In this document: piece by piece, positions 32,636 through 63,065 of the stretch | Numbering within the stretch: position 1 is the first letter of the stretch | Layout: the number at the start of each line of letters is the position of its first letter | Source of the DNA: Peronospora farinosa | Taxonomy: Eukaryota; Oomycota; Peronosporomycetes; Peronosporales; Peronosporaceae | NCBI GenBank assembly: GCA_947646735.1 | Contig: CANTFK010000666.1 | Location: 558,001-622,000 of the forward strand | Length of the DNA: 64,000 nt | Reading direction: 5' to 3' | Position numbers and translations under genes: made by a program | Notes under the pieces: model-generated | Seen by the model: the letters and a program-made list of their open reading frames with translations, nothing else | The model's database searches: none | What the model was told of the DNA's origin: nothing

Positions 32636-34653
32636 TCAGGCGGTGTCGGGCGGAGAAAACTTGCCATGGAGACAGGAAACCCCGAAAGCGGGATGCTCGT
32701 GAATGTTCTTGTGGTAAAAGATGCGCCACGGTTCGACATCATCCATCACCTGCAACGCCTCCATCAGCCCCGGCTGAGAACTCTCCTGGTTGACCCTTGG
32801 GGTCCAGTAAGACAGTTGACGCGTGGGGGTAACTGGCTGGAAGAAGGGGTCCAGCAGGATGTCCAAGTCACAGTGACCTGCTACCATCCCCTGCAGGACC
32901 TTCTTCAGCACTCCCATCCAAGCCTGTGTCGCCTTGGCCCGTCGTTTTTTCCTGGCGTTGTAAATTTGGGAGATGTACGCACTGCCGGAACGAAGAGCTA
33001 TGGAGAAATGAAGACGGTGCCGGTCCTCCCACAGACTCTGGCGCGATGCGTCTACGTAGGCATCGTGGAGCTCCACCAGTCCAACAAACCAGCCGTTTAC
33101 GGGGAACGAGAGAGGATACTCAGACATCGTCTGCTTCTCTCATGGGCGCGAGTTCATCAACAGCCGGAGCTGAGATTCCGTTACGAGACTATTAGTCTCG
33201 CCCAGGCGGTCCTTGGATCTTTGTCTAAAGGGGGGCCCGGACCCATCCACGAAGCTGGAAGGGTTATGCGGGACCACAGGTCCTTCACGCTTAATTGCGA
33301 GATCGCAAGGGGGCCCACCATAGAGACGGGCCATGGGGAAACGTCTTCGGTCTTGAACACACTTGGCTGGGCGTATCCCGGAATGGATAGGCCCCAGGCG
33401 TTGGAACCAGCGGGACCTTTGGATGCTGGCACCCCTTGATCATCGAAGTCGAGACTCTCAGTATCGGACTCAGAAGGACCGAAAAGCTGGATGAACAGGT
33501 CGGAATGAGGCGTGGGCGTCTTTTCCGAGCTGGAAGAAGCAGCAGGTGACGTCTGTACTTCGGGAGGAGGCTTGGCCATTGGTTTCCCAGTGGACCCCGC
33601 CGGTTTAGGAAGAGGCTTGGACGTTGGTTTCCTAGTGGACCCCGCTGGTTTCGTTGGTTTCCCAGTGGAACCCGCCGTTGAGAAGAGGCTTGACTTTGAT
33701 TTCCCAGTGGAGCCCGCCGGTGTGGACTCCGTTGATGTTGGGAGAGAACCAGACTTGGGTGTCCCAGTAGATTCCACGGACGTCGAAGAAGGGCCGGATG
33801 TCGTTTTACGAAATAAGTCCACCACCTCTGGAGCGGGTTTCCCCACGTAAGTCACCGGGCTACCACGACGACGAGAGGCACGTGACCGAGCCATCGCCGC
33901 GAGTAGAGACTCATCGCTGCTACTGGACTCGTCTTCAGAGGAACTTGGGGCACGGGTAGTCCGACGCTTCTTCGATGTGGAAGGGGCTGGAACTTCGGCA
34001 GCAGGAGACCGAGATCTTTAAGCCCTTGAAGGTCCTGGGACCTTAGTCTTAGGCGAGGCAGATCTATCCGCGGCGCTCCGAGCTACGGTCAGCTGTTTCT
34101 GGAGTTGGTCCCGTTGGCAGGCGACTTGCTTAACGAGGGCTTTAGAGCGGGCCAGCTCATCTCGAAGTAGTGATATTTGAGATACTGTGGACCGAAGATC
34201 GGCCGTGGTGGTATCCAACTTGGCCTCCAGCTCTTCTATCTGGAGTGTGAAGCTCGTCACACTGGCCTCATACTGGTCCCTCCAGTACCGAATCTTGGAC
34301 CGAGACGCTTCAACCTCAAGGCGATAATCCTTCCGGGTGGCGAGCGCATCTCGGTATTCCGCAATAGTTAGCTGGTCGGTTTCGTGATCGCGGACGAGAT
34401 TCCGAATTCGAGCCTCGATCCGGGGAAGATCAACTTTTTCAAATCGAATGACCTCGTCCACGCGGCTCTGCCATTCTTGGGCCCGGCGATGCTCAGCCTG
34501 ATAGGCCTGCTGGAGGGCCCTATGATTGTTAGCAAGGGTCTCCATAACTTGGGCTCGTTCCATCGCCAGCTGGATCGCTTCCCACGCCCGGGTAACACTC
34601 GCATAATCGGGGGGGGGGGGCTCCCCGACGAGGTCTGCAGTCGGAATAACCAA
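32636..34653 (-). pseudogene. Element 2 antisense gene: coiled coil, Ser/Pro repeats, conserved C-terminal domain
   Basis: Lies on the strand opposite to gag-pol, convergent with it, with about 260 bp between the two stop codons. 34018-34653 is a long coiled coil (for example WRDQYEASVTSFTLQIEELE). One in-frame TAA separates it from 33181-33894, which has a basic and Ser-rich stretch, repeats of the type PAGSTGKP, then DLFIQLFGPSESDTESLD and SIPGY. Two frameshifts near 33130-33190 precede the C-terminal piece 32636-33127, which has FPVNGWF, KVLQGMVAGHCDLDILLDP and DVEPWR. Order and motifs match the intact antisense gene of element 4. Function unknown. Probably not made as a full protein in this copy. 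Confidence 0.8.
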
Positions 34654-34860: not shown

Positions 34861-34872
34861 GCAGGGGACAGC
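34861..34872 (+). other. Element 2 polypurine stretch before 3' LTR
   Basis: gcaggggacagc directly precedes the LTR. The same core gcaggggac stands before the 3' LTR of element 4, so it is the likely plus-strand primer site. Confidence 0.6.
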
Positions 34873-35977
34873 TGTGGAGAAGTGCCAGAAAAATGGGGGG
34901 CCCTTCGTAGTTATTTAATAACTGGCGTGAAAGATCTCGGTCACTCTCTTGAATGAGTGACAGGGAGTGGCCAGGGCCCCGAACTGGTCCAAGGTCCCGA
35001 GCTCGGAGAAGGTACTAGGAGGTCCTACACTACAGACCAAAGGACCAGTGCTGCTAGGGCAGCTTAGGTTGACCCCAGGTAACAGGTGGACCCCAGACAA
35101 CAGGTGGACCCAGGTGACCAGTGGACCCCAGGCAACAGGTTGACCCAGGTGACAGGTTGACCCCAGGTAACAGGTGGACCCCAGACAACAGGTCAACCCA
35201 GGCGACCGGTGGACCAGGTGGTCAGTGGACCCCAAATGACAGGGGTACAGGGGCCCAGGTGTACCGGGGTCCAATGACCGAGGGTGCAGAATCGGTACAC
35301 AGAATATCGAAGATTACAGAAAGTACAGGTACCAAGGAGCCAGTTCTTCCTCCAAGAGTCGACACGTGGCACTATCCAGATCAAAGGGTTAGGGTTAGTC
35401 AAGAAAAGCATACAGAAAATAAGATAAATAAACACACTCGAATTTGCATTACACGTGGCAGCTTTAAGCGCCCCTCCTAAGCTTCTCCGTCGCTTCACCT
35501 CTTCCGGGCGGGATACCCTTTGGCCCCCGACGTCCAGCAGGTGTTAGACGGCTCAAGCAACGCAAGTTGAACCTCAGGATAGTTGGCCTGAGGTGTCAAG
35601 ACTCTACGAACCGCTACAGGAAGCGGTTTCCCTACGGGGAAGAACACAAAGGGGTCCAAGGACCAAGAACAGTCAGCCACCAAAGGGGTACATAGTACCA
35701 GGTGCATCGCTCTCGACTAAGTCGATGAGCCCAAGAAACCCGGTCCCAAGTGAAGTATATCCACTCGGGGACCACCAAGTCCAAGTCTTATACAAAGACC
35801 AAGTCTTTAAGTCTTCTGCGTCTAACGAGGAGCAAGACCAGCCAAGCCGACGGGTACACAAGGTGAGACCCAAGGCCAACACGACACGGTATCGGGGTAC
35901 CCTCTCCGTAAGTCGGCAGTCCGGCGCTGTGTGTGTTTGTGGATCTCCTACGTTGTTTGAGAATCCACTCCACCACA
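34873..35977 (+). repeat. Element 2 3' LTR
   Basis: 1105 bp, TGTGGAGAAG...CCACCACA. It differs from the 5' LTR by scattered substitutions, a shorter minisatellite (35072-35240) and small indels, so this insertion is older than element 4. Confidence 0.93.
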
Positions 35978-35981
35978 ATCC
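35978..35981. repeat. Target-site duplication atcc, right copy of element 2
   Basis: Matches 23364-23367. Confidence 0.9.
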
Positions 35982-40541: not shown

Positions 40542-41180
40542 TGTAGCCGAGCTGCACAGCTCTTTAGCCAGAGGAAGACTTTCTGCCGGAAGCCTCTTAG
40601 TTCTAGAGAACTAACTAGAGTTAAGGCTAAAAGCCACTTAGTTCTAAGGAACTAATTAAACGACTTTAAAGTCACCCTCTTCTAAGGAAGTAGGAGAGAC
40701 TTTTAGTCAGCAAGCAATAAGCTTAAGGTTCAGAGAACCAACGCACAGAGTGCAAGAAGAAGCTAGAAGCTTAGGGGTTCAGAGTACCAACGCACGAAGT
40801 GCACAAGAGAGCAAGTCAGAACGACTTGCGATCTTAAACTCAAAAGGAGAACTGATTTTATTTATGCTTTAAGATTTTATGAATAGTCCTACTCTAAGTA
40901 CACTACACTAGATTAATTACTATAATAGTAATTATTATATGCAGACTTTTCTATTGGACGAGGTATCGTCTAAACATCTGTGTATGATGTACTTAATACA
41001 GCGTTAGTGATTTATCGAATCTCAATCGATAAGATACGGTATTACCGAATACCGTATTATAACGCTCATACTTAATACCTCTCTAAAGAGAAGTATAATA
41101 ATGCATTATATGCAATACAAAGGAGAGTTTAACCGTAAACTCTCGGAAAGACGCTACAACCGTCGTGTAATCCCGTTACA
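40542..41180 (-). repeat. Element 3 3' LTR
   Basis: 639 bp, TGTAGCCGAG...CCCGTTACA on the plus strand. Differs from the 5' LTR at 61745-62382 by few substitutions and one small indel. Composed largely of short inverted repeats (for example tagttctagagaacta, and atacggtatt facing aataccgtat). Confidence 0.95.
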
Positions 41181-45612: not shown

Positions 45613-45799
45613 CTATTCACTGACATCACTACGTGATAAAGCAGACGCTTTACGTCTCGCAGCCGCCATCTGGCGACGCTGCCGTCTCATTGACGAGACC
45701 GTACTTTTCAAAGTACTTGGGATATTATCATCCCCAAGGTCAACAGAACCCTTGTCATTTACCTGCCCTATGCGAGGGCCGATGTCATTACCGACACCC

Positions 45800-46500
45800 A
45801 GTGGGTCCCTAGTACCAGTGACTTCACTAACAAGGTCATCGACCTTCACTTGCTCTATACGAGAGCCGATGTCATTATCGACATCCAGTAAATCGCATTT
45901 ACAGCCAATATCACTAACAAGGTCATCGACCTTAACTTGCTCTATACGAGAGCCGATGTCATTACCGACATCCAGTAAATCGCATTTACAGCCAATATCA
46001 CTAGCAAGGTCATCGACCTTAACATGCTCTATACGAGAGCCGATGTCAATATCGACATCCAGTAAATCGCATTTACAGCCAATATTACTAACAAGGTCAT
46101 CGACCTTCACTTGCTCTATACGAGAGCCGATGTCATTACCGACATCCAGTAAATCGCATTTACAGCCAATATCACTAGCAAGGTCATCGACCTTAACATG
46201 CTCTATACGAGAGCCGATGTCAATATCGACATCCAGTAAATCGCATTTACAGCCAATATTACTAACAAGGTCATCGACCTTCACTTGCTCTATACGAGAG
46301 CCGATGTCATTACCGACATCCAGTAAATCGCATTTACAGCCAATATCACTAACAAGGTCATCGACCTTAACTTGCTCTATACGAGAGCCTATGTCATTAC
46401 CGACATCCAGTAAATCGCATTTACAGCCAATATTTCACTAGCAAGGTCATCGACCTTAACTTGCTCTATACGAGAGCCGATGTCTTTCCGACATCCAGTG
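45800..46500 (-). repeat. 87-bp tandem repeat, about eight copies, in the element 3 protease-RT linker
   Basis: The word gacctt(a/c)ac recurs at 45841, 45928, 46015, 46102, 46189, 46276, 46363 and 46452. The spacing is exactly 87 bp (29 codons), except for the last, which is 89 because of an inserted tt that shifts the frame. Encodes units such as IGSRIEQVKVDDLVSDIG with CKCDLLDV. Adjacent units alternate between two variants (gtcaatatcgac and gtcattaccgac), which suggests duplication of pairs of units. Confidence 0.95.
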
Positions 46501-47219: not shown

Positions 47220-48526
47220 TGTGGTGGAGTGGGATTCGCAAGATTGCTGATGCGATCCCAACTCTCCACTGGCGCCCGGACGACCGACTAACGGAGGGGG
47301 TACCCCGATTCCGTGTGTATAGCCTTCCTCACCTTGTGTACCCGTCGGTAGGGCGGGTTGCTCTCTTCTCGGTAGACTTGAGTCGATGTTGAACTTGATT
47401 GTGTTAGGGATAGGTGGGGGGGGGCGATCGCGTGGAATTCCTCACACGATCGCAGTTGTTCTTGGGGTGCTCTATTTGAGTCGCCCTGATCTCCCTTGAG
47501 ATCGCCTTGTCCAAAAATGTAGATACTTGATTCGCTTGCCTTCTGACCACTTGAGCCGTCTCGCGATCTTGTATCTGGACTTCTTAGTCCTCTGCGTCCA
47601 ATCGCAGCTTGAGTTGTTTTGTTGAGAATTCTTGCAATCCCTGGCCAAACAATCCAGGGATATGACTTGCGTAGTAGGTAGACTTCCTTGAGACGTCGGG
47701 AGGCCAAAGAATCCAGCCCGGAAGAGAGGTCGACACGTGTACTTAGAAGCAAATTGAACTCTGTTAATGTTAACCAATCAAATACCAAAACCTATGATCT
47801 TGACTATCTGTAGCTCAGGATCTGTTGCCACGTATCGCCCTTTCGGAAAAAATCAGATCTCGGAATGTGGTCCACTCCAATATAGCCGCGATCTGGATCG
47901 CTACCTCACTCGGATATAATACCATTTTAGTACCAGATCGCGGTACTAAATAATTAGTACCAGATCGCGGTACTAAATAATTAGTACCAGATCGCGGTAC
48001 TAAATAATTAGTACCAGATCGCGGTACTAAATAATTAGTACCAGATCGCGGTATTAAATAATTAATACCAGATCGCGGTACTAAATAATTAATATCGGAT
48101 CGCGATCCGCCGGATCACGACTTGTCTTCTTCACCGTTTCTCAGGTCATGTGAGATAGTTCATCAATGTGACATTTCATATCCACCATTCCAGTCCTCCA
48201 TAGCGACGTGATCCACACCAGACCGTCCTCCACATGCTTGGATGTACCCATCTTCCTCCTTAGCGACCGCGTTCACGCGGATCGCCATCGGAAATACTGG
48301 AGATCGCAATAGCGTAGTTTCTAGGCCATATTTGACCCCACATAGAAGTGCAAACTACTCCATTCACTGTTTTCCATCCTATTTGACATCGTCTTGAAAC
48401 CTTTCTGCGAGATCGCGACTCATCAATATTGGCCACGAGATCGCGACTCATTAATATTGGCCATTTCGGACTTAACCGAAAATATGCGATCACACTTGGC
48501 GAAATTCACTCTTTCACTTCGCCACA
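47220..48526 (-). repeat. Element 4 3' LTR
   Basis: 1307 bp, TGTGGTGGAG...CTTCGCCACA on the plus strand. Six full copies of a 27-bp repeat lie at about 47930-48090. Confidence 0.96.
47928..48092. repeat. 27-bp repeat in element 4 3' LTR
   Basis: Six copies of agtaccagatcgcggtact plus aaataatt. Each unit is an inverted repeat, agtacc and ggtact around agatcgc. The 5' LTR has five copies (about 60126-60262). Confidence 0.95.
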
Positions 48527-48542
48527 ATCGTCCCCTGCACCG
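48527..48542 (-). other. Element 4 polypurine stretch
   Basis: The minus strand reads TCGGTGCAGGGGACGAT next to the 3' LTR. The core GCAGGGGAC is shared with element 2. Confidence 0.55.
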
Positions 48543-48611
48543 ATAGCCCACATACAGTGTTGGCCTAACTGTGCACTGTCTCGCTTCACTCTTCTCGTCA
48601 CTTCGTCCCTT

Positions 48612-51215
48612 ATGGCCAGATCTACACCCGAAAACGATCGCCACCCCCAAACTGGTGTGCTCGTTACGCGCGATCCAACGATAGGTTCCTCTACCGGATC
48701 GCGTATCTTGCTCCCGTCTACCCGGATAATCCTTCCTCCCGTTGCAGATCGTCAGAACGCGATCTCGTTGGTTTCTTCATTGTATGACCGCCTGGAAGCC
48801 CAGGATACCATCGTGGAAAGCTATCACTCCATGGAAAATGCCTTGCAGGAGCAGGAATTTCGTGGAAATCAGCTGGAGACGGAACTCAACTCGTATCACG
48901 AGTTGGTGCCTCGACTGTGCACATTCGTCTTGCGTCGAGATGAAGAGTTGCGTCAACAACTTGATGCCGCTCTCCACATGGCCGAAGGTCTCGACGAAGA
49001 ACTGAACCAGCTAACGGATCAGTCTCAGGAGATCGCCGATCTGAAGAATGCCTTGTTTCGAGCCAATGCAGAGAAACATCGCCTGCAGGATAAATTCCGC
49101 CGTGAGGCGGCCAATCTTCAGCGAACTCTGGAAGGAAAATTCCGGCAGCAGATCGCGTCCCTCCAACAGCAACTGGACTCCATCCTCGCACAGCGTAATA
49201 CAGCAGACAGTGCTTTGGCCGCTGACTTTCGACGCATGAAAAGCAAGGCATCCAAGTACAAGAAAGCTCGTTCTCAGGCCCAGCAAGCCGCGAAACAACT
49301 GCAAGAGACACTGAGCGCGCTCGAGCTTGATCATGATCGCCTCCTGAGTACGAGTATTCGGAACGACGCAGCTTTGGATCGACTTCGTACCGAAGTTGCA
49401 GATCGAGAGGCAGAGCGCGATCTGGCCATCCAGGATCGAGATTTACTTCGTTCGCATCTGGCAGAATTGGCTACGGGCTTACTTCCTTCTCCGACTAGCC
49501 TTCTCGCGCTTTCCAATCCCTCGTCACCCAATCGCAAACGTGCGTCATCTTCACCGACTCTGGACGTCCCCTGTAAACGTCCCCGCAGCGCTTCCGGTAC
49601 TTCTGCTCAATCTGCGACCTCGGAGGGATCTGGCATTCCAGCGCGATCTGGGACTTCGACGCGATCTGAAATTCCGGCGCAATCCGGTACTTCGGCACAG
49701 TCTAATACTTTGGCGCGATCTGGTACTTCGGCGCGATCTGGTACTTCAGCGCGATCTGGCACTTCAGCGCGATCTAGTATTTCCCCGCGATCTGGTACTC
49801 CGCCGCGATCTGGTACTTCAGCGCGATCTGGCACTTCAGCGCGATCTGGTATTTCCGCGCGATCTGGGACTTCGGCGCGATCTGATACTTCAGCGCGATC
49901 TGGTACTCCGCCGCAATCTGGTAATTTAACGCGATCTGGTACTCCGGCGCGATCTGGGACTTCGACGCGATCTGATACCTCAGAACGGTCTGCCAAGTCG
50001 GTGCGATCCGTTATTACAACGCGACCCAATGTTTCGTCGAAAGCTAAAAAGAAACGCAAAACGTGTCCCTCGCCTTCGCCTGACTCTGAGTATGACGGCT
50101 GGTCTTCCGATCCCGAGGACGCTACACTTGCTGCTCTATCCGGATCGCGTTCCACCACGAGGCGTCGCAACACCACGACGAAACTCTCTGGCAACACCGG
50201 ATCGTCTCAGTCCCCTATCATAATTCACAATGGTAGCCCACCCTCCAAAAAATCACCAGTCTCGAGTCCTGCTACGCCCCCTAGCCTTACGACCAAGATT
50301 TCTAAGGTCGACCTTTTTGGCGAACCTTCTAGCGACTCGGACGGGAAGATTAGCGTTTCCAGTGACATCCGTGAAGATATAAACCAGTTGCTCACTCCCG
50401 CTCAATACGCCGACCTGCCTGATCTCCAAAAATCACGTGATGTGTGGATCCCAGGATATCGTGAGCGAAAGCCCCGATCGTCAACTCAGGTCGCTCCATG
50501 GTCCGCCCGACGGGTCAGTCTGACCAGTGTTGCCGAATTGGGAGTGGAGTTCTTCTATCGACACTTGTCCCGACCGAGAGGGTATATCTTCAACCCTCAA
50601 GCCAATCCCAAATCTCTTCTTGATTCTGAGTGGATTCCCCGACTGATCACCCCGGCACAAGTTACTGCGCTTTACGATCAGAAACCGTGGAACGTCACTC
50701 GTCGGCCGATTGCTCCCATCTCTTTCCCGCTGACCGGTTGGTTCAAAGATCTGGCGGACATTTACCTGGAATATGAAGATCGCCATAGGCAAGCCTTGTG
50801 GGAGGCAACCCACTTCCTGTATATCTCCCGCGAACTTCGGAAGGAGTATCCAGAGCTGGCGCAATTTTGTCAGCAACGCAAGCAGCGTCGGTCGAGATCT
50901 GGACCCCGCTGGAAGACTATTCTTCGCGTTATTCTCCAAGGGATGATCGAAGGACACTGTGATCTGGATATTTTGTTAGATCCATACTTCCTCCACTTTC
51001 CAGTGTACGCAGAAGTGCGACCATGGTATCCTGGTTTGGATTGCAAGCAGAAAAACATTCCCAACCTGATTACTGCACTGTCGTTATTGGATTCTGCGGA
51101 GCCTTGGCGGAACCAATATCGGTCCTCAATCGCGGATCACCCCGGTTCATCCCTCGCCCGTTTATCCAGTAAATTCTTTCCCAAACAGCAGTCGGGATCT
51201 GATAACACTTCTTGA
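48612..51215 (+). CDS. Antisense gene of element 4: 867-aa coiled-coil protein with conserved C-terminal domain
   Basis: Unbroken frame on the strand opposite to gag-pol, convergent with pol. It is open from 48429, inside the LTR; the ATG at 48612 (MARSTPEND) is the first one clearly outside the LTR, 86 bp in. Layout from that start: disordered lead, coiled coil about 50-290, Ser/Thr/Arg repeats about 333-473 (units like ARSGTS, 15-18 bp in DNA), basic patch KAKKKRKT near 478 (possible nuclear signal), DLFGEPSSDSD near 567, then a C-terminal domain of about 250 residues with WIPGY, FPLTGWF, ILQGMIEGHCDLDILLDP and SAEPWR. No known family recognised. A diverged homologue lies in the same place in element 2, which argues against a chance frame. 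Confidence 0.8.
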   Translation: MARSTPENDRHPQTGVLVTRDPTIGSSTGSRILLPSTRIILPPVADRQNAISLVSSLYDRLEAQDTIVESYHSMENALQEQEFRGNQLETELNSYHELVPRLCTFVLRRDEELRQQLDAALHMAEGLDEELNQLTDQSQEIADLKNALFRANAEKHRLQDKFRREAANLQRTLEGKFRQQIASLQQQLDSILAQRNTADSALAADFRRMKSKASKYKKARSQAQQAAKQLQETLSALELDHDRLLSTSIRNDAALDRLRTEVADREAERDLAIQDRDLLRSHLAELATGLLPSPTSLLALSNPSSPNRKRASSSPTLDVPCKRPRSASGTSAQSATSEGSGIPARSGTSTRSEIPAQSGTSAQSNTLARSGTSARSGTSARSGTSARSSISPRSGTPPRSGTSARSGTSARSGISARSGTSARSDTSARSGTPPQSGNLTRSGTPARSGTSTRSDTSERSAKSVRSVITTRPNVSSKAKKKRKTCPSPSPDSEYDGWSSDPEDATLAALSGSRSTTRRRNTTTKLSGNTGSSQSPIIIHNGSPPSKKSPVSSPATPPSLTTKISKVDLFGEPSSDSDGKISVSSDIREDINQLLTPAQYADLPDLQKSRDVWIPGYRERKPRSSTQVAPWSARRVSLTSVAELGVEFFYRHLSRPRGYIFNPQANPKSLLDSEWIPRLITPAQVTALYDQKPWNVTRRPIAPISFPLTGWFKDLADIYLEYEDRHRQALWEATHFLYISRELRKEYPELAQFCQQRKQRRSRSGPRWKTILRVILQGMIEGHCDLDILLDPYFLHFPVYAEVRPWYPGLDCKQKNIPNLITALSLLDSAEPWRNQYRSSIADHPGSSLARLSSKFFPKQQSGSDNTS
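49610..50000 (+). repeat. 15-bp-based repeat inside the element 4 antisense gene
   Basis: More than twenty imperfect units of the type gcgatctggtacttc with small spacers. All keep the frame, encoding (A/P)RSGTS-like units. Each unit contains GCGATCTG, the reverse complement of the CAGATCGC word seen throughout the element. Confidence 0.93.
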
Positions 51216-51398
51216 TCGTTCAATACAATTCCATTTTGTTCCTCCTTTTCGTTAAAATTGTCTTCTTTTGTTGGGCTTCTTTAGCCGCGATCTCGTCTTC
51301 CAGACCTTCGATCGCCATACTCATTACACACAAATTTCCTTTCCACCATCCTATGCAACCTTCTTGCATATTATACCATCCCCAACACTCGATCTTCG
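51216..51398. other. Convergent gap between antisense gene and pol of element 4
   Basis: 183 bp between the stop of the antisense gene (plus) and the stop of pol (minus). It presumably holds the 3' ends of both transcripts; I see no clear shared terminator or poly(A) signal. Confidence 0.5.
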
Positions 51399-54300
51399 TT
51401 AGCCACCAGATCCCTCTTCATGTGATTGCATCACTTCAAAACGATTCCGGCTAATCTTGCCACGTTCAAAATCTCGCAATAAGGCACCACAATTTAAGTC
51501 GGCTTCATCCACCCAGGATGGTTTAGCATGACCTTTCCAGTAGACTTTAAACTGTCTATGTACTCGTCCAAAACGTGTCTTTCTATCAGATCGTACATCC
51601 ACAATCTTTTCCACTTCGAATTCATCGTCTCCCAGATTACCTTCAAAACTGTCTTCTGGCAAAAGCGCTTCATCAAAATCGAATCGATATTCTTCTTCGA
51701 TCGTCAGCAAATTTTTTGGACGATCAGGGAACGTCTTCACTTTCTTCAACTTGGATATATGTACGACGGGAAATAATCGATATGGCGTACCAGCAATCTC
51801 CAGTCGGACAGCGTGATCTCCACACATTTCTTTTACTCGAAAAGGTCCATGCCACATATGTGCTAGCTTTCGAGCGTACCCTTCTTTCACACGATCCAAA
51901 TATAACCAGACTTGCGCCCCCGGCTCAATTTCGTGAGGCTTGAGATCTTCATTGTGGCGATCAGCACGTGTTTGGATCGCAGTCCTGAGTCTCTCATTTA
52001 CTGCTTCTCTCGCCCGCTGATAATGCCGCTGCATATGATATCGCCACCTACGTGGATCGCGATCTCGACGCCTAGTACTTCCTAATGGTAACGTAGCTTC
52101 CAACGTAGATCTCGGGTCCCAACCATGAATCAAGAAAAATGGCGTTTCGCCGCGCACCCGATCTTGAGCGGTATTGATTGCGAAAGTTAGACGTTCGGCA
52201 TACTCATCCCAGTCTTGTTGATTAACGTCAGAGACATACATCTTTAATGCACGAGTCAGAGTTTGCACCATACGTTCCGCAGTTCCATTCGCTTGAGGGC
52301 GATATGCCATCGTTGCCCTTTGCTTTTGCCCAATAAGTCGATTGAACGCACGAAAAAAATCCGACATAAACCCGGGCTCTCGATCGTGCCGTATCGCTTC
52401 ACTCGCACCGAATCGTCGAAAGATACACTCCTCGTAATTCTCGGCGATCGTCTGAGCTGTTCTAGATTTGCTCGCCTTGGCAACCACATAGCCCGAAAAG
52501 AGATCGACCCAGATCAATAATTCAGTGTTGCCTTTGAAAGATCTAGGCAGCGACGGAATATGATCCATGGCAATAATCTGGAACGGATAAGTAGCTTGTA
52601 AATTTCCCGGAGACTCTCCATTAATAACCGGACGTCCTTTTCCAGTCTCGCAGTCAGTGCATTCGCTCACATATCGTTGTACACTGCGATACAGGCCTCT
52701 CCAATGAAAACGAGATCGGATCCGTTGATACGTCCTACCGATTCCCTGGTGCCCTCCTTCCAAACTGGCATGGTAGTGGTGTAGAAAATCTTGCTGAAGA
52801 GTTTCTGGCACCACCAAACGAGCAATTCCATCGAGATCGTCCGAATTTTTCACAGCTCCCGGGCAAAAATATAGAATATCGCTTTCATCCACCTCATAAT
52901 CACTTGCAATCTTGGCGCATGACTTCGCTTCTTCCATACTGAGATTCGTTATATCACCAATCAGAAAAATCTTTAGGTTAGCGATCCAACATTCCTCATC
53001 TTGAGCTTGTCGTATACGTTCACTTCGCATTTGCTGCACAAATTCTTCTTGCAAGATCTCGGGTGGTTGACGTCTTCTCCGGGTTGCTCTGGTAATCGCA
53101 GCCACTTTAACCACCGATTCGGTCTGCTTCGACTTCAACAACTCATCCAGTCTATTAAGAGTAATGAGATCTTGGCGATCTCCTTCCGAAGTGATGACCA
53201 CACCTTGTTCCTTCTGTAAAGCAGTACTCGCCAGTCGATCTGCACTTTGGTTCCAGTCGCGTTTCATGTGTAAGAACTCATGGATCGGCCATGATCGAAG
53301 CTTCTCCATTGCTTTCTGTCGCAACAACTGCAGTCCAGGAGCCTTGCAATCGATTTCACCCCGCATCTGTCGAATCACTAGGTTGGAGTCGCCACAAATA
53401 ATAACGCGTCCCCTAGTTTGATTCTCCAACAGATCAAAGCCTAATAGTAAACCCCGATATTCGGCTTCGTTCACTGTTAAGTCCGTTGCATATTCCGATG
53501 CAGCAGCCACAATAGTCCACTCAGGAAGTTTCCATATTATCGCACTGTATGATCCACCCTTTCGCTTGGTTCGTGCCGATCCATCGAAACTGACGACCAA
53601 GAGACTTTCATCTTCTTCCACCGTAGGCGGTGGCATACTTAGAGTTTGCCTTGGCTGTTTCCGGGGAGCGATCGCAATCAACACTTCGTCGACTTCTTCA
53701 CGGGGAGTCACACTTGCAGCCAGGGCACCAAGCATTTCATCTTCGCCCTTTTCACATTTCTTGATCTCCAAAGTCCAAGTCGATAATAATGCGGCCCACC
53801 TACCTAGCCTGCCATTGAGACCGAAGGATTGCACCAACCAGGCCATCGTCGAGAAACGCGTAAGAACTTTAATCTCTCGCGAGACTAGCATGCAATAACA
53901 TATATCCAAAATCCGAAGTAATGCTAGTATCTCCTTCTCGACCATTCCGTAATTGATTTCATTAGGCTTCAGCGTTCGGCTTGTAAAAGTAACTGGCCAA
54001 TATATACCATCATACTCCTGCAATAAAGCTGCTGAAACGGCCCATTTACTCGCATATACGACAATTACCGGAGGCCGATCTGGATCGAAGTGTCTGAGGA
54101 TCGGGGTATTAGCGATCTTGGCTTTCAACATGGTAAATGCGATCATCGCTTTTTCCCATCGAGTCCGTCCTTCTGGATCTGGATCGTCCCCAATATCGAA
54201 CTTTTGATCTGAATCATTCCTGGTTGCGACAGTCGAATCCAATGCATTCATCTTGTCAGAACAGCGGATTTCATGGAAATCTGCTTCCCTTAATTCATAT

Positions 54301-54407
54301 AGCACTGACGCATAAATCGCAAAGTCTTCGACAAATCGACTATAGTAATTCAAGCTTCCCAGAAACGATTGCATCGATCGCAACGTTTTTGGGAACGGAA
54401 TATTCAC
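51399..54407 (-). CDS. Element 4 RT thumb, dual RNase H, integrase and chromodomain (1002 codons)
   Basis: Starts in the RT thumb (LRSMQSFLGSLNYYSRF). The first RNase H, about residues 100-250, lacks the catalytic residues: VVYAS for DAS, LTRFS for TDH. The second RNase H, about 275-395, keeps all four acids: SFDGSAR, NEAEYRG, GDSNLV, NQSADRLA. The integrase has a zinc module (HHYHASLEGGH ... CTDCETGK), core MDHIPSLP, IRHDREPGF and NGTAERMVQ, and the C-terminal motif WHGPFRVKEM. The chromodomain at about 935-985 is FEVEKIVDVR, RQFKVYWKGHAKPSWVD. The end NRFEVMQSHEE is the same as in element 2. The ATG is not a true start: RT is in another frame just upstream (single-base shift near 54410). 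Confidence 0.93.
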   Translation of the reverse strand: MNIPFPKTLRSMQSFLGSLNYYSRFVEDFAIYASVLYELREADFHEIRCSDKMNALDSTVATRNDSDQKFDIGDDPDPEGRTRWEKAMIAFTMLKAKIANTPILRHFDPDRPPVIVVYASKWAVSAALLQEYDGIYWPVTFTSRTLKPNEINYGMVEKEILALLRILDICYCMLVSREIKVLTRFSTMAWLVQSFGLNGRLGRWAALLSTWTLEIKKCEKGEDEMLGALAASVTPREEVDEVLIAIAPRKQPRQTLSMPPPTVEEDESLLVVSFDGSARTKRKGGSYSAIIWKLPEWTIVAAASEYATDLTVNEAEYRGLLLGFDLLENQTRGRVIICGDSNLVIRQMRGEIDCKAPGLQLLRQKAMEKLRSWPIHEFLHMKRDWNQSADRLASTALQKEQGVVITSEGDRQDLITLNRLDELLKSKQTESVVKVAAITRATRRRRQPPEILQEEFVQQMRSERIRQAQDEECWIANLKIFLIGDITNLSMEEAKSCAKIASDYEVDESDILYFCPGAVKNSDDLDGIARLVVPETLQQDFLHHYHASLEGGHQGIGRTYQRIRSRFHWRGLYRSVQRYVSECTDCETGKGRPVINGESPGNLQATYPFQIIAMDHIPSLPRSFKGNTELLIWVDLFSGYVVAKASKSRTAQTIAENYEECIFRRFGASEAIRHDREPGFMSDFFRAFNRLIGQKQRATMAYRPQANGTAERMVQTLTRALKMYVSDVNQQDWDEYAERLTFAINTAQDRVRGETPFFLIHGWDPRSTLEATLPLGSTRRRDRDPRRWRYHMQRHYQRAREAVNERLRTAIQTRADRHNEDLKPHEIEPGAQVWLYLDRVKEGYARKLAHMWHGPFRVKEMCGDHAVRLEIAGTPYRLFPVVHISKLKKVKTFPDRPKNLLTIEEEYRFDFDEALLPEDSFEGNLGDDEFEVEKIVDVRSDRKTRFGRVHRQFKVYWKGHAKPSWVDEADLNCGALLRDFERGKISRNRFEVMQSHEEGSGG

Positions 54408-55474
54408 CAGCGATCCAAATCATCCTTTGGATGAGCTTCTATTCCTGCAAGTGAGACTTGATGACCCAGGTAATCCACTTTACGTCGTCCCCAAAAACTC
54501 TTAGCGAGACTGATCGACAAATTCCATTCACTGCATACTTCTAACAATCGCTTTACCTTATCATATAAGGAGGCCCACGAGGTTGCTGGAATCAATATGT
54601 CATCAATATATGACCTTCGGCCGAGCACAGATGGCTTCTGGCTAGTATCCGGTTTGCCTTCAGTGAATACATCCGCCAGCTTTGGCGATTCCGTTAACGT
54701 ATTAGTGGAGTCGAGTGATCCTGTGGAAATTGCATTTGGATCCGTACCGATCTTGAGGTATCCATACAGTGCATTATCAATTAGACGTTGGTAAATCTGC
54801 GGAGCGTTTTTTAGCCCAAACGGCATTCGTAACCACTCGAACAGGCCTGAAGGCGTGATAAAAGCAGAAATCATCCTTGCTCGCTCGGTCATTTCCACGA
54901 CCCAAAATCCACTGGCCATATCCAGCGAACAATACCACATAGCTCTATCCATATCTTGCAATAATTCGCTAATCAGAGGCATAGGATACACCATCAATCT
55001 CGTGAGTTGATTCACCCGCCGATAGTCAATACATAACCGGATGTCGACACCATTCTTTTTTATGATTGCCACAATCGGCGAAGCCCATGGTGATGTCGAC
55101 GGCTGGATAATCCTGGCTGATAGTAATCCTCTGATTAGGTCAGCTAACTTCTCGCGAAATTTGGGAGCGACCGGTCGTACTCGTTGTGCGATCGGGTGTG
55201 CTCCACCAACATCGATATCACACACTGCTCCTCGAGCTGCAGGAGGAAGCGCGTTTCCTTTGTAAATGAGTAAGTGTCGGTTCGCCCAAATTAATTGCCG
55301 TAGACTTTCTTGGTCCTTGGTTAAAGGAACTCCCGGATCGCCCACTTGGATATCATCAATCGTAACTTCTTCGGTGGATGATACAATCTCAGGCAAGACA
55401 GCCATATGCTGATCCACATCTTCGGCATACAATTCACCACTCTCATGACAATACATCGAGTCTTCAGGCTTCAT
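54404..55474 (-). CDS. Element 4 reverse transcriptase (356 codons)
   Basis: Ty3-type RT. LPPAARGAVCDIDVGGAHPI, FREKLADLIRGLL, VDIRLCIDYRRVNQL, YCSLDMASGFWVVEM (first catalytic Asp), FEWLRMPFGLKNAPQIYQRL and the catalytic SYIDDILI. Like element 2, it has an insert of about 45 Ser/Thr-rich residues between LYGYL and YIDD, unusual for Ty3 RTs. The ATG at 55474 overlaps the TGA of the upstream linker frame (ATGA). It ends by frameshift just before the thumb. Needed to copy element RNA into DNA. Confidence 0.92.
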   Translation of the reverse strand: MKPEDSMYCHESGELYAEDVDQHMAVLPEIVSSTEEVTIDDIQVGDPGVPLTKDQESLRQLIWANRHLLIYKGNALPPAARGAVCDIDVGGAHPIAQRVRPVAPKFREKLADLIRGLLSARIIQPSTSPWASPIVAIIKKNGVDIRLCIDYRRVNQLTRLMVYPMPLISELLQDMDRAMWYCSLDMASGFWVVEMTERARMISAFITPSGLFEWLRMPFGLKNAPQIYQRLIDNALYGYLKIGTDPNAISTGSLDSTNTLTESPKLADVFTEGKPDTSQKPSVLGRRSYIDDILIPATSWASLYDKVKRLLEVCSEWNLSISLAKSFWGRRKVDYLGHQVSLAGIEAHPKDDLDRW

Positions 55475-55830: not shown

Positions 55831-57128
55831 TACATTTCGGTGTATAGTTATTGTGAGTGTAATTATCTTCACCCCACGGCCCTTTCACGTGATCGACATT
55901 TGACATCCCTCTGATCGCATTGATTACCCATGGAGATTGCGCTACTTGCTCGCTTTCATCTTCGATCACCAGATCTTCTACATTGTTGCCACCGATTCCT
56001 CTTATCGCATCGCATTCATCATTGGATCGTGTCGTGGGTTTCACTGTTTCCGTAGTCCTTTCTTCTGCTTCCTTTTTTGAGCGTGTTAAGATCCTCTTCG
56101 GCGTAGGGTACGAAGGATGGTTCACTAGCGGTCCGGTATATTCCTCCAGTAGTTCTTCTTCTCGATCCGTTGTCGCTTCGAACGCTAATGTCTGCCATTC
56201 GTTATACCGACGCGATCCCACCGAGACATATCCTGGGGACCGAGGTATCATATCAGCAACCATCCACCAACCTAATGGCGATCCATGACTTAAAGTCATT
56301 TCTTGATCGCCGATATTAGTCAGCTGTAGATACTTGATCTGACCTGGTCCCGTAGTTACTGTAGGTACCCACTTCGGATCGCGCCTCACCCAGATCTTGG
56401 CTTTAGGAGGACTAACTCCGATCTTCACTTCGGTCGATTTGCCCACGGGAATCACCACATATTGATCTGGAATTGTGATCGCTTGTATGGTCGCCCGGTA
56501 AGGGGGTCTTCGTCCATTCAGAAGTATCCTGACCTCATCAGGCAAACAAAGTGTTCCATCTGCTAAATCCAGGCGTATTCCAGCTGGGACCATAAAATCC
56601 ATTCCAAGGATCGCGTCTTGACCTACTTGATCTCCTACCCAAGCATCAAAATAATAGACTAGCGATCCATTCAGCGTGATCTTGATTCTTGTACGACCGT
56701 CCGTCATGTATATGTTCTCACCAATCCCAACACATTCTTGCCTCTGACTCTCGTCAATGACACATCCTACCTTACGAGCAAAGGTGGTGTCGACGATTGA
56801 GACTTCGGCTCCAGAATCAAACAACATAATCGCCTTTTCATTGTTGATCTTGCCCGTTGCCTTGGCTTGCTTGAACCATTTTCCTGGGGTATGATATTTC
56901 CAATTTCCCCTGGTGCTAAGTCGAGCTCCATTTTCGCAGGCGATCGGGCATATTCATCAACTCTTACGACGCTTGATATTGAACGCAGAAATTTTGAATC
57001 TTCACATGTATTATTCGGGTCGATCTGAGTGTTCACGCCCTGATCTGTCGATCTTCTTTCCACAAATGCATAAATGCAGAGCCTAGAACGCTCGGCTCGT
57101 ACCAGATTCCAACCTGGCGAGCGTCCTA
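55718..57128 (-). CDS. Element 4 protease, read in the -1 frame after gag
   Basis: From the gag stop the -1 frame reads KLGRSPGWNLVRAERS and continues to MELDLAPGEI. A one- or two-base change at 56890-56910 then shifts the frame, after which WKYHTPGKWFKQA and the active site MLFDSGAEVSIVD follow (open frame 55718-56827). GQDAILGMDFMVPAGIRLD completes the fold, and a charged tail leads into the repeat linker. The DSGA active site is intact, but the frame is broken at 56900 unless that position is a sequencing error. Confidence 0.85.
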
Positions 57129-57135
57129 GTTTAAC
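57084..57135 (-). promoter_or_regulatory. Candidate -1 ribosomal frameshift signal, element 4 gag-pro
   Basis: Gag ends ATG-TTA-AAC-TAG: heptamer G-TTA-AAC at 57129-57135 with the stop directly after. An 11-bp stem follows (TAGGACGCTCG with CGAGCGTTCTA, one G-U pair), with an inner CCAG/CTGG stem and an 8-base loop. The -1 frame is open into the protease. The heptamer followed by a stop is the arrangement known from arterivirus ORF1a/1b. The stem is kept in element 2 with changes that mostly preserve pairing. Confidence 0.65.
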
Positions 57136-59417
57136 ATTTCTTCAGCCTTCGGCGGAAGCATTCCAGCATGCTTGGTTGGGACATACCACTTGCGTATCAT
57201 GTTGTAGAATTCTTCCATTCGACATTTTCCATGCTCATGGATATCTCCGCAGGCAGCACAGGTGTAAAAACACTTGTCCGACGGATGTCCCTTACGACCA
57301 CACTTCTGACACGTTAGTCTCTTCCAGCATCCACGATCATCGTGTTTCTTCGACCCACAATGGGTACAAGCCTTCTGATTCACCACGCGATCTGGACCGC
57401 GATCTTGATCCAAATAGTCTGATCCCGCGCGTTGATCACTATATTTCTTCACGCGATCTGGTACTGTGGCCACACATAAGTTGCGTCGATCTATTTCGGC
57501 GTCTGATCCACTAATATCCGAGTCTGACTCACTGCTACTGCCTTCCAGACGAATCGCTCTCACAGCACGAGCTGGTTTCGAGGGTGCCGGAGTGGATGCC
57601 GACGCAGATCGCTGACGAAATTTGCTCGATCCCATTGCACTCGGATACTGTCTTCCCTCCATGCGTTGATATGTTCGCAGAGTTTCTTCCATATCATCGA
57701 CGTCTCCAAGGCGTAACAACGTCAACTGCTTAGCCAGATCGCGATCATCCAGTGTACCAATGAAATGTTCCACATGTTCTCGGCGAATTGAGGGCGATCC
57801 TTCCCGAATGGGGATTTTTGCTCGGATCGCGGCCACATTCAGTCGATACAAATATTCCAATGGAGTTTCATCAGATCGCTTCTTCGCATGGTAGTATTGT
57901 CTCCCGACCGACATACCATATCCACAATACTGGATCATGAAGGTTTCCAGCAACGACTTCCATGAATTCCGGGTGGATCGACTTAACTGGCTATACCAAT
58001 TTCGTGCCGGCCCCGTAAGTAAATCACCAAATACTAGACATTTTTCATCATCCGGGGCTTGGTCGCGTAAGAACGCCGACTTGGCCTTGTTGACCCAACT
58101 TCTCGCTCGATCCTCGTCCTTGTCCCGTCCTGTAAATTCTTTTAGATCTGCGATCGCAGACATTCGAATTCGCTGGGTGACAAGTCCACCATTGGGTACA
58201 GTGCCTGCACTTGCGACTTGTGGCCGTCTTAGATCCTCCAGACCCAAATCGTCTGGATCGTAATTATTGGATCGCGATTGACGCGATCCGGCCGATTCCA
58301 TATCCACATCCGAAATGCAAACTTTTGGGATGTTTGTAGGGATCGCGGATCGACTGGCGATCATGCGAGCTTGATCCTGCTCGTACTTTCTCATGGCAGC
58401 TTTAAAATAAGATTGCAATTGACCTGATCCATTCACGTTCATGTCTTCAGCTGTGAGTGCCGTCGTCGATTGTTCTCTGGCCTTAATCGGTGCCAGTCGC
58501 TCGCAAATATGCGCTGCACCAGCCGGTCCAAGTGACATTCGCTGCATATTAATCGAGTCGTCCGACTCCCCTTCGGATTCCGCTGACATATATTGCGAAG
58601 ATCCCGTATGATATCCTTTTGGTATATCTGCAATCGGCTGGATCGTCTGATCCACCGGATCGCGCTCTCCAGTGAGAGGAACTAGCTTCGAAAACAGAGA
58701 TCGCCCTGCTTGGATCACCCGATCATGATCGCATTCCAACAGCACCTGCGCGTCAAAAGCTCCAGCGGTGAATCCAGCGTTCTGGAGCAACTCCATAAGC
58801 CGACGGATCGCTTCCAACTGGTTCGTTGTCGGAATGGGAGCTGAAATTGGTCCTCGCAGCGATCCAATCAACTTCGGTTTCAAAATCTTTAGAACGGGAT
58901 CGCTTGACAACAGATCTTTAAGTGCCTTCCAATGAAAACACCATTCCAGCTGATCCAGTTGCCATCCTTTCGCCTTGTCTTCCTCATGCGCTGGCTTCAC
59001 GTCGATATCATCATGATCCGACTCAGGCGCCTTCATCTTCACTCGGGATGGCTTCGAATTCTTCTTCTTCTTCGAATTCGGAGTGGTTTTGGATAATTTT
59101 CCCTCTGTTTTAACCGAAGGGTTTTTATCCAGCGGATCGCGTTTTGCAACGCGATCCGCAGGGGTCCTCGAAAGGACCTGGGGAGGGGGTAGAGGTTTTT
59201 CTTCCAGATCAATCTCTTGATCTTCCTCCTTGGTTTTCTTTTCATCTGCGTCCCTCCCAAAACGCTGATGATCCGGGGATCTTTTTTCTTCACACGTCTG
59301 CGGCGATCCCTCTACCGCTGACGCTTCAATCCCAGGTTCAATTTTGATCTTGACATCTTCTCTCAGGAACTCACGGTGAAATCCCGAGTCACCAGAAGAT
59401 CCGGGCACGCGCACCAT
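57126..59417 (-). CDS. Element 4 gag (763 aa from the PBS-overlapping ATG)
   Basis: Structural polyprotein. The ATG at 59417 uses the single base after the LTR plus the first TG of the primer-binding site (MVRVPGSSGDSGFHRE). The frame is also open upstream to 59975 inside the LTR (949 codons in all). The N-terminal third is charged and disordered (KKKKNSKPSRVKMK, many acidic stretches). The middle has the Gag core (FTGRDKDEDRARSWVNKA, CLVFGDLLTGPARNWYSQL, TPLEYLYRLNVAAIRAK). The C-terminus has two CX2CX4HX4C knuckles (CTHCGSKKHDDRGC, CQKCGRKGHPSDKC), a third variant knuckle (CAACGDIHEHGKC), and ends EEMLN. The start within the LTR, if used, would add 186 residues of unknown role. Confidence 0.92.
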   Translation of the reverse strand: MVRVPGSSGDSGFHREFLREDVKIKIEPGIEASAVEGSPQTCEEKRSPDHQRFGRDADEKKTKEEDQEIDLEEKPLPPPQVLSRTPADRVAKRDPLDKNPSVKTEGKLSKTTPNSKKKKNSKPSRVKMKAPESDHDDIDVKPAHEEDKAKGWQLDQLEWCFHWKALKDLLSSDPVLKILKPKLIGSLRGPISAPIPTTNQLEAIRRLMELLQNAGFTAGAFDAQVLLECDHDRVIQAGRSLFSKLVPLTGERDPVDQTIQPIADIPKGYHTGSSQYMSAESEGESDDSINMQRMSLGPAGAAHICERLAPIKAREQSTTALTAEDMNVNGSGQLQSYFKAAMRKYEQDQARMIASRSAIPTNIPKVCISDVDMESAGSRQSRSNNYDPDDLGLEDLRRPQVASAGTVPNGGLVTQRIRMSAIADLKEFTGRDKDEDRARSWVNKAKSAFLRDQAPDDEKCLVFGDLLTGPARNWYSQLSRSTRNSWKSLLETFMIQYCGYGMSVGRQYYHAKKRSDETPLEYLYRLNVAAIRAKIPIREGSPSIRREHVEHFIGTLDDRDLAKQLTLLRLGDVDDMEETLRTYQRMEGRQYPSAMGSSKFRQRSASASTPAPSKPARAVRAIRLEGSSSESDSDISGSDAEIDRRNLCVATVPDRVKKYSDQRAGSDYLDQDRGPDRVVNQKACTHCGSKKHDDRGCWKRLTCQKCGRKGHPSDKCFYTCAACGDIHEHGKCRMEEFYNMIRKWYVPTKHAGMLPPKAEEMLN
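59399..59416 (-). other. Element 4 primer-binding site
   Basis: The minus strand reads TGGTGCGCGTGCCCGGAT one base inside the 5' LTR, complementary to a tRNA 3' end ATCCGGGCACGCGCACCA. Not the tRNA-Leu of the array, whose end would be AGCTGACACCA. Confidence 0.85.
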
Positions 59418-60697
59418 TGTGGTGGAGTGGGGTTCGCAAGATTGCTGATGCGATCCCAACTCTCCACTGGCGCCCGGACGACCGACTAACGGAGGGGGTA
59501 CCCCGATTCTGTGTGTATAGCCTTCCTCACCTTGTGTACCCGTCGGTAGGGCGGGTTGCTCTCTTCTCGGTAGACTTGAGTCGATGTTGAACTTGATTGT
59601 GTTAGGGATAGGTGGGGGGGGCGATCGCGTGGAATTCCTCACACGATCGCAGTTGTTCTTGGGGTGCTCTATTTGAGTCGCCCTGATCTCCCTTGAGATC
59701 GCCTTGTCCAAAAAATGTAGATACTTGATTTGCTTGCCTTCTGACCACTTGAGCCGTCTCGCGATCTTGTATCTGGACTTCTTAGTCCTCTGCGTCCAAT
59801 CGCAGCTTGAGTTGTTTTGTTGAGAATTCTTGCAATCCCTGGCCAAACAATCCAGGGATATGACTTGCGTAGTAGGTAGACTTCCTTGAGACGTCGGGAG
59901 GCCAAAGAATCCAGCCCGGAAGAGAGGTCGACACGTGTACTTAGAAGCAAATTGAACTCTGTTAATGTTAACCAATCAAATACCAAAACCTATGATCTTG
60001 ACTATCTGTAGCTCAGGATCTGTTGCCACGTATCGCCCTTTCGGAAAAAATCAGATCTCGGAATGTGGTCCACTCCAATATAGCCGCGATCTGGATCGCT
60101 ACCTCACTCGGATATAATACCATTTTAGTACCAGATCGCGGTACTAAATAATTAGTACCAGATCGCGGTACTAAATAATTAGTACCAGATCGCGGTACTA
60201 AATAATTAGTACCAGATCGCGGTACTAAATAATTAATACCAGATCGCGGTACTAAATAATTAATATCGGATCGCGATCCGCCGGATCACGACTTGTCTTC
60301 TTCACCGTTTCTCAGGTCATGTGAGATAGTTCATCAATGTGACATTTCATATCTACCATTCCAGTCCTCCATAGCGACGTGATCCACACCAGACCGTCCT
60401 CCACATGCTTGGATGTACCCATCTTCCTCCTTAGCGACCGCGTTCACGCGGATCGCCATCGGAAATACTGGAGATCGCAATAGCGTAGTTTCTAGGCCAT
60501 ATTTGACCCCACATAGAAGTGCAAACTACTCCATTCACTGTTTTCCATCCTATTTGACATCGTCTTGAAACCTTTCTGCGAGATCGCGACTCATCAATAT
60601 TGGCCACGAGATCGCGACTCATTAATATTGGCCATTTCGGACTTAACCGAAAATATGCGATCACACTTGGCGAAATTCACTCTTTCACTTCGCCACA
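59418..60697 (-). repeat. Element 4 5' LTR
   Basis: 1280 bp, nearly identical to the 3' LTR (47220-48526). One 27-bp repeat unit fewer and a shorter G run near 59620. Confidence 0.96.
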
Positions 60698-61744: not shown

Positions 61745-62382
61745 TGTAGCCGAGCTGCACAGCTCTTTAGCCAGAGGAAGACTTTCGGCTGGAAGCCTCT
61801 TAGTTCTAGAGAACTAACTAGGGTTAAGGCTAAAAGCCACTTAGTTTTAAGGAACTAAGTATTCGACGTTAAAGTCACCCTCTTCTAAGGAAGTAGGAGA
61901 GACTTTTAGTCAGCAAGCAATAAGCTTAAGGTTCAGAGAACCAACGCACAGAGTGCAAGAGAAGCTAGAAGCTTAGGGGTTCAGAGAACCAACGCACGAA
62001 GTGCACAAGAGAGCAAGTCAGAACGACTTGCGATCTTAAACTCAAAAGGAGAACTGATTTTATTTATGCTTTAAGCTTTTATGAATAGTCCTACTCTAAG
62101 TACACTACACTAGATTAATTACTATAATAGTAATTATTATATGCAGACTTTTCTATTGGACGAGGTATCGTCTAAACATCTGTGTATGATGTACTTAATA
62201 CAGCGTTAGTGATTTATCGAATCTCAATCGATAAGATACGGTATTACCGAATACCGTATTATAACGCTCATACTTAATACCTCTCTAAAGAGAAGTATAA
62301 TAATGCATTAAATGCAATACAAAGAAGAGTTTAACCGTAAACTCTCGGAAAGACACTACAACCGTCGTGTAATCCCGTTACA
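61745..62382 (-). repeat. Element 3 5' LTR
   Basis: 638 bp, TGTAGCCGAG...CCCGTTACA on the plus strand; pairs with 40542-41180. Confidence 0.95.
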
Positions 62383-62398: not shown

Positions 62399-63065
62399 AG
62401 CCTTCATACCGGTATAGACGTGGCTGGGGCGCTCCTTCGGATAGGAACTTCCCTAAAAGGATCGTGCACCTTGTCTCCTAATGGCTGGCCCCAATCGGGC
62501 GTCGTCGCCTTCCTGCAATGGTGGCATTTTGGCTACCATCGCACGGGTTCAGCGGTTTAATTTGCCTTCCTGGTGGCTCGCACTGAACGAATCCTGTCGA
62601 GCCTCGCATAACGCTCATCAAAGAGGTGGGGTTGCGCAACTTAGTTTTGGAGAAAGTGAGCGAGACGCGTGTACGCGGAATTATTTTATCCTGCCAGCTA
62701 GTACTTGGCTGTCAGGGCTTCGCTGCTAAATTTGGAAGTGGACTCGCTGCAGACACGTAGATTTGAGATCGATGGGCGTATATTAATCGTCAATACTGCG
62801 TTTGGAGTAATAAATGGGTTCAGCTAATGAAGTTACCCTACAGTCATTTTTAGACGTGCAAATAAAGCCGCAACATGCAAAATTATACCACTAAATAGTA
62901 GTAGATTCTGCCCGTCTTGCAAGCAAGGCAAGCTTTTAATTGGTTACACGTAACTAAAAACAAAAACGTAACATCATCTGTTAGAAACGTTTCTAATTGA
63001 CTTTTGAATCGCCCCCATCGAGGCATCTGCCAACCAAGTCGACGTCGTTGGGGTCACGGAACACT
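62399..63065. other. Intergenic stretch without recognisable gene
   Basis: 667 bp between the outermost retrotransposon end and the EST1-like gene. Only short open frames without recognisable motifs. The AT-rich part from 62780 to 63000 is the likely promoter region of the downstream gene; an inverted CCAAT (attgg) lies near 62940. No clear oomycete initiator motif seen. Confidence 0.5.

Follow-up and report, generated by a model that had tools for sequence, protein, structure and literature searches.

A conserved antisense gene between pol and the 3′ long terminal repeat of Gypsy retrotransposons in Peronospora farinosa

Several long terminal repeat (LTR) retrotransposons carry an open reading frame (ORF) between pol and the 3′ LTR, on the strand opposite gag-pol. 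In plants, this positional class (aORF-3R) includes gene23 of Grande and the antisense ORFs of RIRE2 and Retand (PMC7264820, PMC11963269). The gene23 protein is described there as nuclear, and the Retand ORFs mostly carry a Transposase_28 domain (PF04195) that is stated to occur in flowering plants only (PMC11963269). Beyond plants, Boty of Botrytis cinerea has an antisense ORF in the same place (PMC7264820), and in the mussel element SLE-1 an antisense RNA is driven from the 3′ LTR, and cultured cells can produce protein from the antisense ORF (PMC10974842). HBZ of human T-cell leukaemia virus type 1 (HTLV-1) and APH-2 of HTLV-2 are also antisense-encoded, nuclear proteins (PMC11963269), and the HTLV antisense promoter lies in the 3′ LTR (PMC7264820). 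Here we describe an antisense gene of 867 codons in a Gypsy retrotransposon (element 4) of the oomycete Peronospora farinosa, within a 64,000-nucleotide stretch of contig CANTFK010000666.1 (positions 558,001 to 622,000; hereafter the window, numbered from its first letter).

The gene occupies the position that defines the plant class, between pol and the 3′ LTR and opposite gag-pol, as seen in element 4, for which the LTRs were mapped. Retand resembles the Peronospora elements in the length of its 3′ internal region, in often containing tandem repeats and in matching Smc domains in some cases, but it is assigned to a non-chromovirus lineage (PMC11963269), whereas the Peronospora elements bear a chromodomain, reside in an oomycete and lack PF04195. 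For that domain, no match appeared up to E = 1 with the window protein or up to E = 10 with four homologues, a protein of the related family F and the C-terminal piece, under HMMER filters that discard most matches above E = 0.1. The likeness to Boty is positional and, like that to the animal element SLE-1, rests on description rather than on protein sequence. HBZ is a basic leucine zipper (bZIP) protein; no bZIP domain was among the Pfam matches of the Peronospora protein, which, unlike the gene23 product, is nuclear by prediction. It also differs from an env-like accessory protein in being antisense and in having no membrane-spanning stretch (best 19-residue hydropathy, 1.11). A literature search, with thin coverage of subscription journals, found no oomycete precedent for such an antisense ORF. 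The kind of gene is already known from plants, Boty and SLE-1; its protein family and host group look new.

The antisense frame, its copies and its relatives

On the plus strand, the gene runs from an ATG at 48612 to a stop at 51215; counted from a TTG, the interval 48429..51215 holds 928 codons, and the full stop-free frame has 942. In 500 dinucleotide shuffles, stop-free runs reached at most 325 codons in any frame, and no other frame of 48612-51215 is open beyond 199. The gene lies opposite the reverse transcriptase, RNaseH, integrase and chromodomain frames (51399-55474, minus strand) and converges with pol across a gap of ~184 nt. An earlier reading of the window by a model given only the letters and a list of ORFs (the sequence-only reading) had proposed an intact, convergent antisense gene here, and these results bear it out. 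That the gene is protein-coding we regard as close to certain.

Copies are numerous in the genome searched (46.85 Mb, 274 contigs). The DNA search, in which 40 of 400 candidates were scored so that counts are lower bounds, returned at least 24 near-full-length copies of the window's family (family A) at 90-100% identity and 52 matches overall when shorter pieces are included. The gene is open throughout in 15 of these 24 (frames of 905-973 codons), a proportion that applies to gene-bearing copies, as elements lacking the gene would escape such searches. The best eight A copies encode 855-879 amino acids, with lengths differing solely by multiples of six codons. Protein searches gave at least 131 and at least 151 matches in two overlapping lists.

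At least six families carry the gene: A, B, D, F, G and E2, the last being that of element 2 in the window, with 32-72% identity between families in the C-terminal domain. The sequence-only reading had recognized a broken homologue in element 2 (32636..34653, minus strand; LTRs at ~23367-24572 and 34872-35979), and this proved correct: it matches the window protein at 37% identity across 180 residues and has the same relative place and orientation. Relatives of element 2 elsewhere are 93-98% identical to it, with frames of up to 798 codons. Full-length proteins of A, D, F, E2 and G also keep the motif order that had been noted for the two window copies, with substitutions such as LPGY in G, MFG in F and G, and WPWL in F. 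Family B, which was seen in broken copies only, carries DLFGEPSSDSEG and the C-terminal domain. Among four full-length unnamed homologues, P0002-P0004 have all the listed motifs, whereas DLF is missing from P0005. Over its C-terminal 261 residues, an F-family protein is 99% identical to an annotated Peronospora effusa protein (P0007), and the other relatives bearing an organism name are all from Peronospora, the P. belbahrii match being weak. Homologues thus occur in many other elements, where their absence would have spoken against an element gene. One unnamed ENA protein (P0006) joins reverse transcriptase, RNaseH and a piece of the C-terminal domain in a single frame; as a possible chimera or rearranged element, it was excluded from the alignments.

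In the other families too, the gene is situated opposite gag-pol in the interval from pol to the 3′ LTR, although their LTRs are unmapped. A convergent frame resembling the integrase tail of element 4 adjoins it in 13 of 16 copies (L039-L048, L051-L056); in two of the remainder pol is broken (L041, L053), and for L054 no integrase-tail frame was listed. The integrase tree of the six families, in which all inner branches are supported, agrees with the tree of the C-terminal domain in separating {A,B,D} from {F,E2,G} and in grouping {E2,G}, each with support of at least 100/98; the C-terminal tree leaves the order among A, B, D and the four unnamed homologues unresolved. Integrase and C-terminal distances are correlated (Spearman 0.65 over 15 non-independent family pairs). 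Between the two groups, integrase identity is 71-75% and that of the C-terminal domain 32-40%, so the gene evolves faster than integrase. The agreement of the trees on the main splits indicates that the gene is old and co-inherited with pol; most likely, it was already present in the common ancestor of the known families and moved with pol. A host gene that a single element captured recently, or a foreign element nested inside, would fit with the lack of a relative of known function and the unplaced origin of the protein, but is the least probable explanation we considered given at least six families with an integrase-like tree and the integrase-tail frame alongside most copies.

Families A and B also form a mosaic. 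In 150-bp blocks, their identity is 37-72% (mostly 49-65%) over 48401-50950 and 95-99% over 51101-52150, a pattern likely to stem from recombination by template switching. By 52600, A/B identity is down to 78%.

Selection on the C-terminal domain

Variants among 28 copies (L009-L036; L037 and L038 were not included) were divided into singletons, which mostly reflect decay after insertion, and those shared by at least two copies, and were compared with counts expected from the observed mutation spectrum. Over the C-terminal piece used for this test (50250-51212, aligned at ≥87.6% in all 28 copies), shared variants comprised 41 nonsynonymous and 67 synonymous changes against 76.2 and 31.8 expected, giving a ratio of nonsynonymous to synonymous rates (dN/dS, ω) of 0.26 in the antisense frame. 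This was the lowest of the six frames, the next (0.43) being the opposite-strand frame that has third positions in common with it. Singletons in the same piece gave ω = 0.82, and integrase in its own frame gave 0.25 for shared and 1.23 for singleton variants. Shared and singleton variants differed at Fisher P = 4.9e-7, a guide only because variants are not independent of copy ancestry. Variant counts are inflated by poor alignment (48-51% identity) in L031 and L032 for the pol part and in L034 for the middle part. The C-terminal domain is under purifying selection similar in strength to that on integrase. As in the plant class, then, the frame is open in most copies and conserved like other element proteins (15 of 24; ω of 0.26 against 0.25), but its amino-acid divergence between families exceeds that of integrase.

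That the lowest of six ω values falls in the antisense frame argues that conservation of the C-terminal part is not a by-product of a feature on the pol strand, a possibility that the sequence-only reading had itself raised. It also bears on whether the antisense RNA is itself functional, regulating the sense RNA, with the frame incidental. Regulatory antisense RNAs of LTR elements have been discussed (PMC7264820), but selection specific to the antisense frame, indels that preserve it and protein motifs kept from family to family make this very improbable here, and the frame-specific selection likewise disfavours an antisense transcript that merely regulates pol.

Comparisons between and within families extend the pattern. 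A against B gave ω = 0.14, in a comparison that includes the recombinant tract; at larger family distances synonymous sites are mostly saturated, and third positions are still the most different. Pooling the pairs of family F put ω at 0.16 in the C-terminal domain and at 0.62 in the remainder. For the C-terminal domain, E2 copies ranged over 0.13-0.37 and the E2/G comparison came to 0.19. Among pairs of eight young A copies, ω was 0.21 in the coil part (residues 1-307), 0.33 in the linker, 0.39 in the C-terminal domain and 1.30 in the Ser-rich region.

Protein architecture, expression and possible function

From its N terminus, the window protein (net charge +28) comprises a likely coiled-coil region (48801..49463), marked by heptad windows and a weak SMC-like match (P0001 residues 125-345, E = 1.1e-4, far below the curated cut-off); a tract of Ser-rich six-residue repeats (49533..50045), which is unconstrained and changes in copy number by whole units; a linker (50046..50435) with a KKKRK basic patch, LAALSGSRSTTRRR, SPIIIHN, which resembles a SUMO-interaction motif (SIM), and VDLFGEPSSDSD; and the conserved C-terminal domain (50436..51212), which was delimited by alignment, model and ω and contains IPGY, FP--GWF, RKQRRSR, LQGM--GHCDLDILLDP and EPWR. 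All of these lie on the plus strand. The order across families is coil, basic patch, [acidic]-LAA/AM-xx-SRx-RR, SIM-like hydrophobic patch, LFG followed by acidic/Ser residues, and C-terminal domain; in F the SIM-like patch comes before the LAA motif, and G has a repeat-rich stretch after its LFG motif. In nine scanned proteins (one each of A, D, F, E2 and G plus P0002-P0005, with B omitted because its copies are broken), the LAA-SR pattern (LAA-SRxxRR) was present in nine, the FG-acidic motif in eight and the SIM-like patch, by strict pattern, in seven. The motif labels follow what we take to be the consensus of SIMs and of motifs interacting with the TFIIS N-terminal domain (TND). TND-interacting motifs are reported in IWS1.

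An LFG-acidic motif also occurs in the host, where frames on the Leo1 strand of the Leo1 locus, any of which may or may not be part of the Leo1 gene model, contain EMEDLFGSDYDSEEEE (EDLFGSDYDSEEEE) and NEDLFGDETGD (EDLFGDETGD). Leo1 is a subunit of the PAF1 complex. The host genome has 15 SUMO-like, 6 TFIIS-N-like and 4 Piwi matches. The SUMO search also met a single open frame of four tandem ubiquitin-like repeats (L063, G000:C248:543247-544143), probably polyubiquitin.

The C-terminal domain is modelled as helical, with a predicted local distance difference test score (pLDDT) of 80.2 and a predicted template modelling score (pTM) of 0.79 for 300 residues and 44 sequences; a 191-residue core gave 81.6 and 0.74. 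Pfam scans of the protein, and NCBIfam alike, gave only weak coiled-coil-type matches under the cut-off, and a profile search of solved structures gave no match up to E = 10. Structure comparison covered the C-terminal domain: neither Foldseek of the 300-residue model against PDB and BFVD nor VIA re-alignment of both models (300 and 191 residues) produced a noteworthy match, although a known fold is still possible.

The start of the gene lies close to the LTR. Between the LTR edge and the ATG, the leader (48527..48611) combines the complement of the polypurine-tract region with the antisense 5′ leader, and in family A the ATG follows the LTR edge by 86 nt. Measured from the CCACA edge in the same way, the start codons of B and D and a candidate one of F fall within ~100 nt (the LTR edges of these families are unmapped); the length of the P. 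effusa protein P0007 corresponds to a later F start. With the ATG so close, a promoter must be in the LTR edge or the short leader. Identity is 89% between A and B over 48522-48575 and 78% between A and D over 48516-48575; a 54-bp stretch spanning the LTR edge and polypurine-tract region is kept between families, for which reverse transcription alone could account. Using published definitions of the oomycete initiator (INR) and flanking promoter region (FPR) (PMC3599244), we found four INR-like matches (YCAYTYY) in A, at -106 and -98 (within the LTR) and -26 and -14 of the ATG, with ~0.5 expected in 150 nt. B and D have one each (0.3 and 0.4 expected) and in F a single match precedes one of the three candidate starts. 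Antisense transcription probably begins close to the inner edge of the 3′ LTR.

On balance, we favour a protein-coding accessory gene of a chromodomain-bearing Gypsy clade that would make a nuclear adaptor through an antisense mRNA. Intact frames, selection, tree agreement and the constant domain order support the accessory protein that the sequence-only reading had put forward; for the nuclear adaptor role itself, we put the chances at even. This mRNA would have its start at the U3 edge of the 3′ LTR, or slightly inward of it, and would yield a nuclear protein. Its coiled coil would dimerize it; short motifs in the disordered linker, SUMO-interaction-like and LFG-acidic as at the Leo1 locus, would dock it on host nuclear machinery; and the C-terminal domain, which is basic and helical, would bind either nucleic acid or the machinery by which the element itself integrates or is transcribed. 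The job of the protein may be to tune transcription of the element, or to place its integration, in chromatin; its exact targets are speculative. A more specific version, in which an adaptor of unmatched fold mimics a host elongation docking motif (LFG-acidic, as at the Leo1 locus) and binds SUMO, is a long shot. If true, mimicry and SUMO binding would couple element transcription or integration to active host chromatin, a self-supplied counterpart of the lentiviral use of LEDGF.

Alternatively, the protein could be a cofactor of the element particle or integration complex, partnering Gag or integrase, rather than a regulator of transcription. Its tree agrees with that of the chromodomain integrase, it is basic, and its coiled coil would permit assembly; however, a separate antisense mRNA is expected, placing the protein outside the Gag-Pol polyprotein, and its nuclear-type motifs are conserved, so we consider this role unlikely. 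Somewhat more doubtful is a suppressor of RNA silencing. The convergent layout of the gene and pol means that an antisense mRNA could pair with the 3′ genomic RNA to form double-stranded RNA (dsRNA), in which case host small-RNA defence would have to be blunted. The four Piwi matches in the host are compatible with this, and small RNAs of Phytophthora infestans are reported to map mostly to transposable elements, chiefly LTR retrotransposons (PMC3522703), but no silencing-suppressor or dsRNA-binding domain was among the Pfam matches.

Several observations weigh against the favoured nuclear adaptor and the selection on which it leans. In the 1500 bases upstream of the C-terminal piece, shared variants gave ω = 0.77, no lower than the 0.74 of the opposite-strand frame, so the shared-variant test yields no evidence of selection there. 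The 16 intact A copies alone have just 7 shared C-terminal variants (ω = 0.64). Three close F pairs differ by 1-2 synonymous and 3-7 nonsynonymous changes, and with so few synonymous changes the F estimate depends on comparisons with L039. Three G pairs gave ω of 1.2-2.5 on 9-17 changes. An ω near 1 between young copies is what neutral decay following insertion, or a relaxation of constraint, would produce. The protein-level selection claimed by the sequence-only reading is supported by shared C-terminal variants and between families, where dN/dS is well below 1, though some very young copies give values near or above 1. As to function, neither sequence-profile nor fold searches found a known fold or domain backing a biochemical role. 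The motif patterns are short and were written from the same related proteins, and the shuffles control for composition only. No [LMI]FG motif was found in frames >110 amino acids at four TFIIS-N loci, which were glanced at in passing only; clear INR-like enrichment is restricted to A; and we infer both the antisense transcript and its protein from sequence, which weakens the case.

Setting of element 4 and significance of the gene

Element 4 lies on the minus strand and is bounded by a 3′ LTR (47220..48526, TG...CA, ends read from sequence) and a 5′ LTR (59418..60697), a repeat pair that differs at 4 of 1279 aligned bases plus 29 gap columns, so its insertion is recent. Repeat units of 27 bp lie inside the LTR at 47927-48104, and one of the two LTRs is 27 bases longer than the other. 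By Pfam, pol (51399..54407) encodes RNaseH, integrase and a chromodomain, and the adjoining frame (54404..55474) encodes the reverse transcriptase; a frame at 57126..59975 bears a weak Retrotrans_gag match (E = 0.0013, below its cut-off). All of these are on the minus strand. The order reverse transcriptase-RNaseH-integrase with a C-terminal chromodomain is that of chromodomain-bearing Gypsy elements; the Chromo match is 3 bits short of the cut-off in element 4 (E = 1.6e-4) and above it in element 2 (E = 1.6e-9).

Element 4 is itself inserted in an outer Gypsy element (40542-62382) with 639-bp LTRs at 40542-41180 and 61745-62382. The outer element has an integrase and a chromodomain, and a translated search (tblastn) with the window protein found no antisense homologue in it; the gene is thus not universal among Gypsy elements. 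A tandem repeat with a unit of ~87 bp occupies 45758-46499 of the outer element. Elsewhere in the window, positions 1-21400 form a tandem array of 41 copies of a 544-bp unit, with 28 of 30 listed copies matching the reference exactly over 300 nt, and 62997-63998 contains the start of an Est1-like gene (EST1 and EST1_DNA_bind domains) that continues beyond the window end.

The recent insertion of element 4 (4 of 1279 LTR bases) suggests that the system was active lately. The function of the antisense accessory genes of LTR elements is unexplained in plants, in the fungus and in the mussel. Six diverged families in one genome, with selection on the C-terminal domain like that on integrase and in a distant eukaryotic group, argue for a real, recurrent need, and the conserved short motifs render that need testable by simple binding assays.

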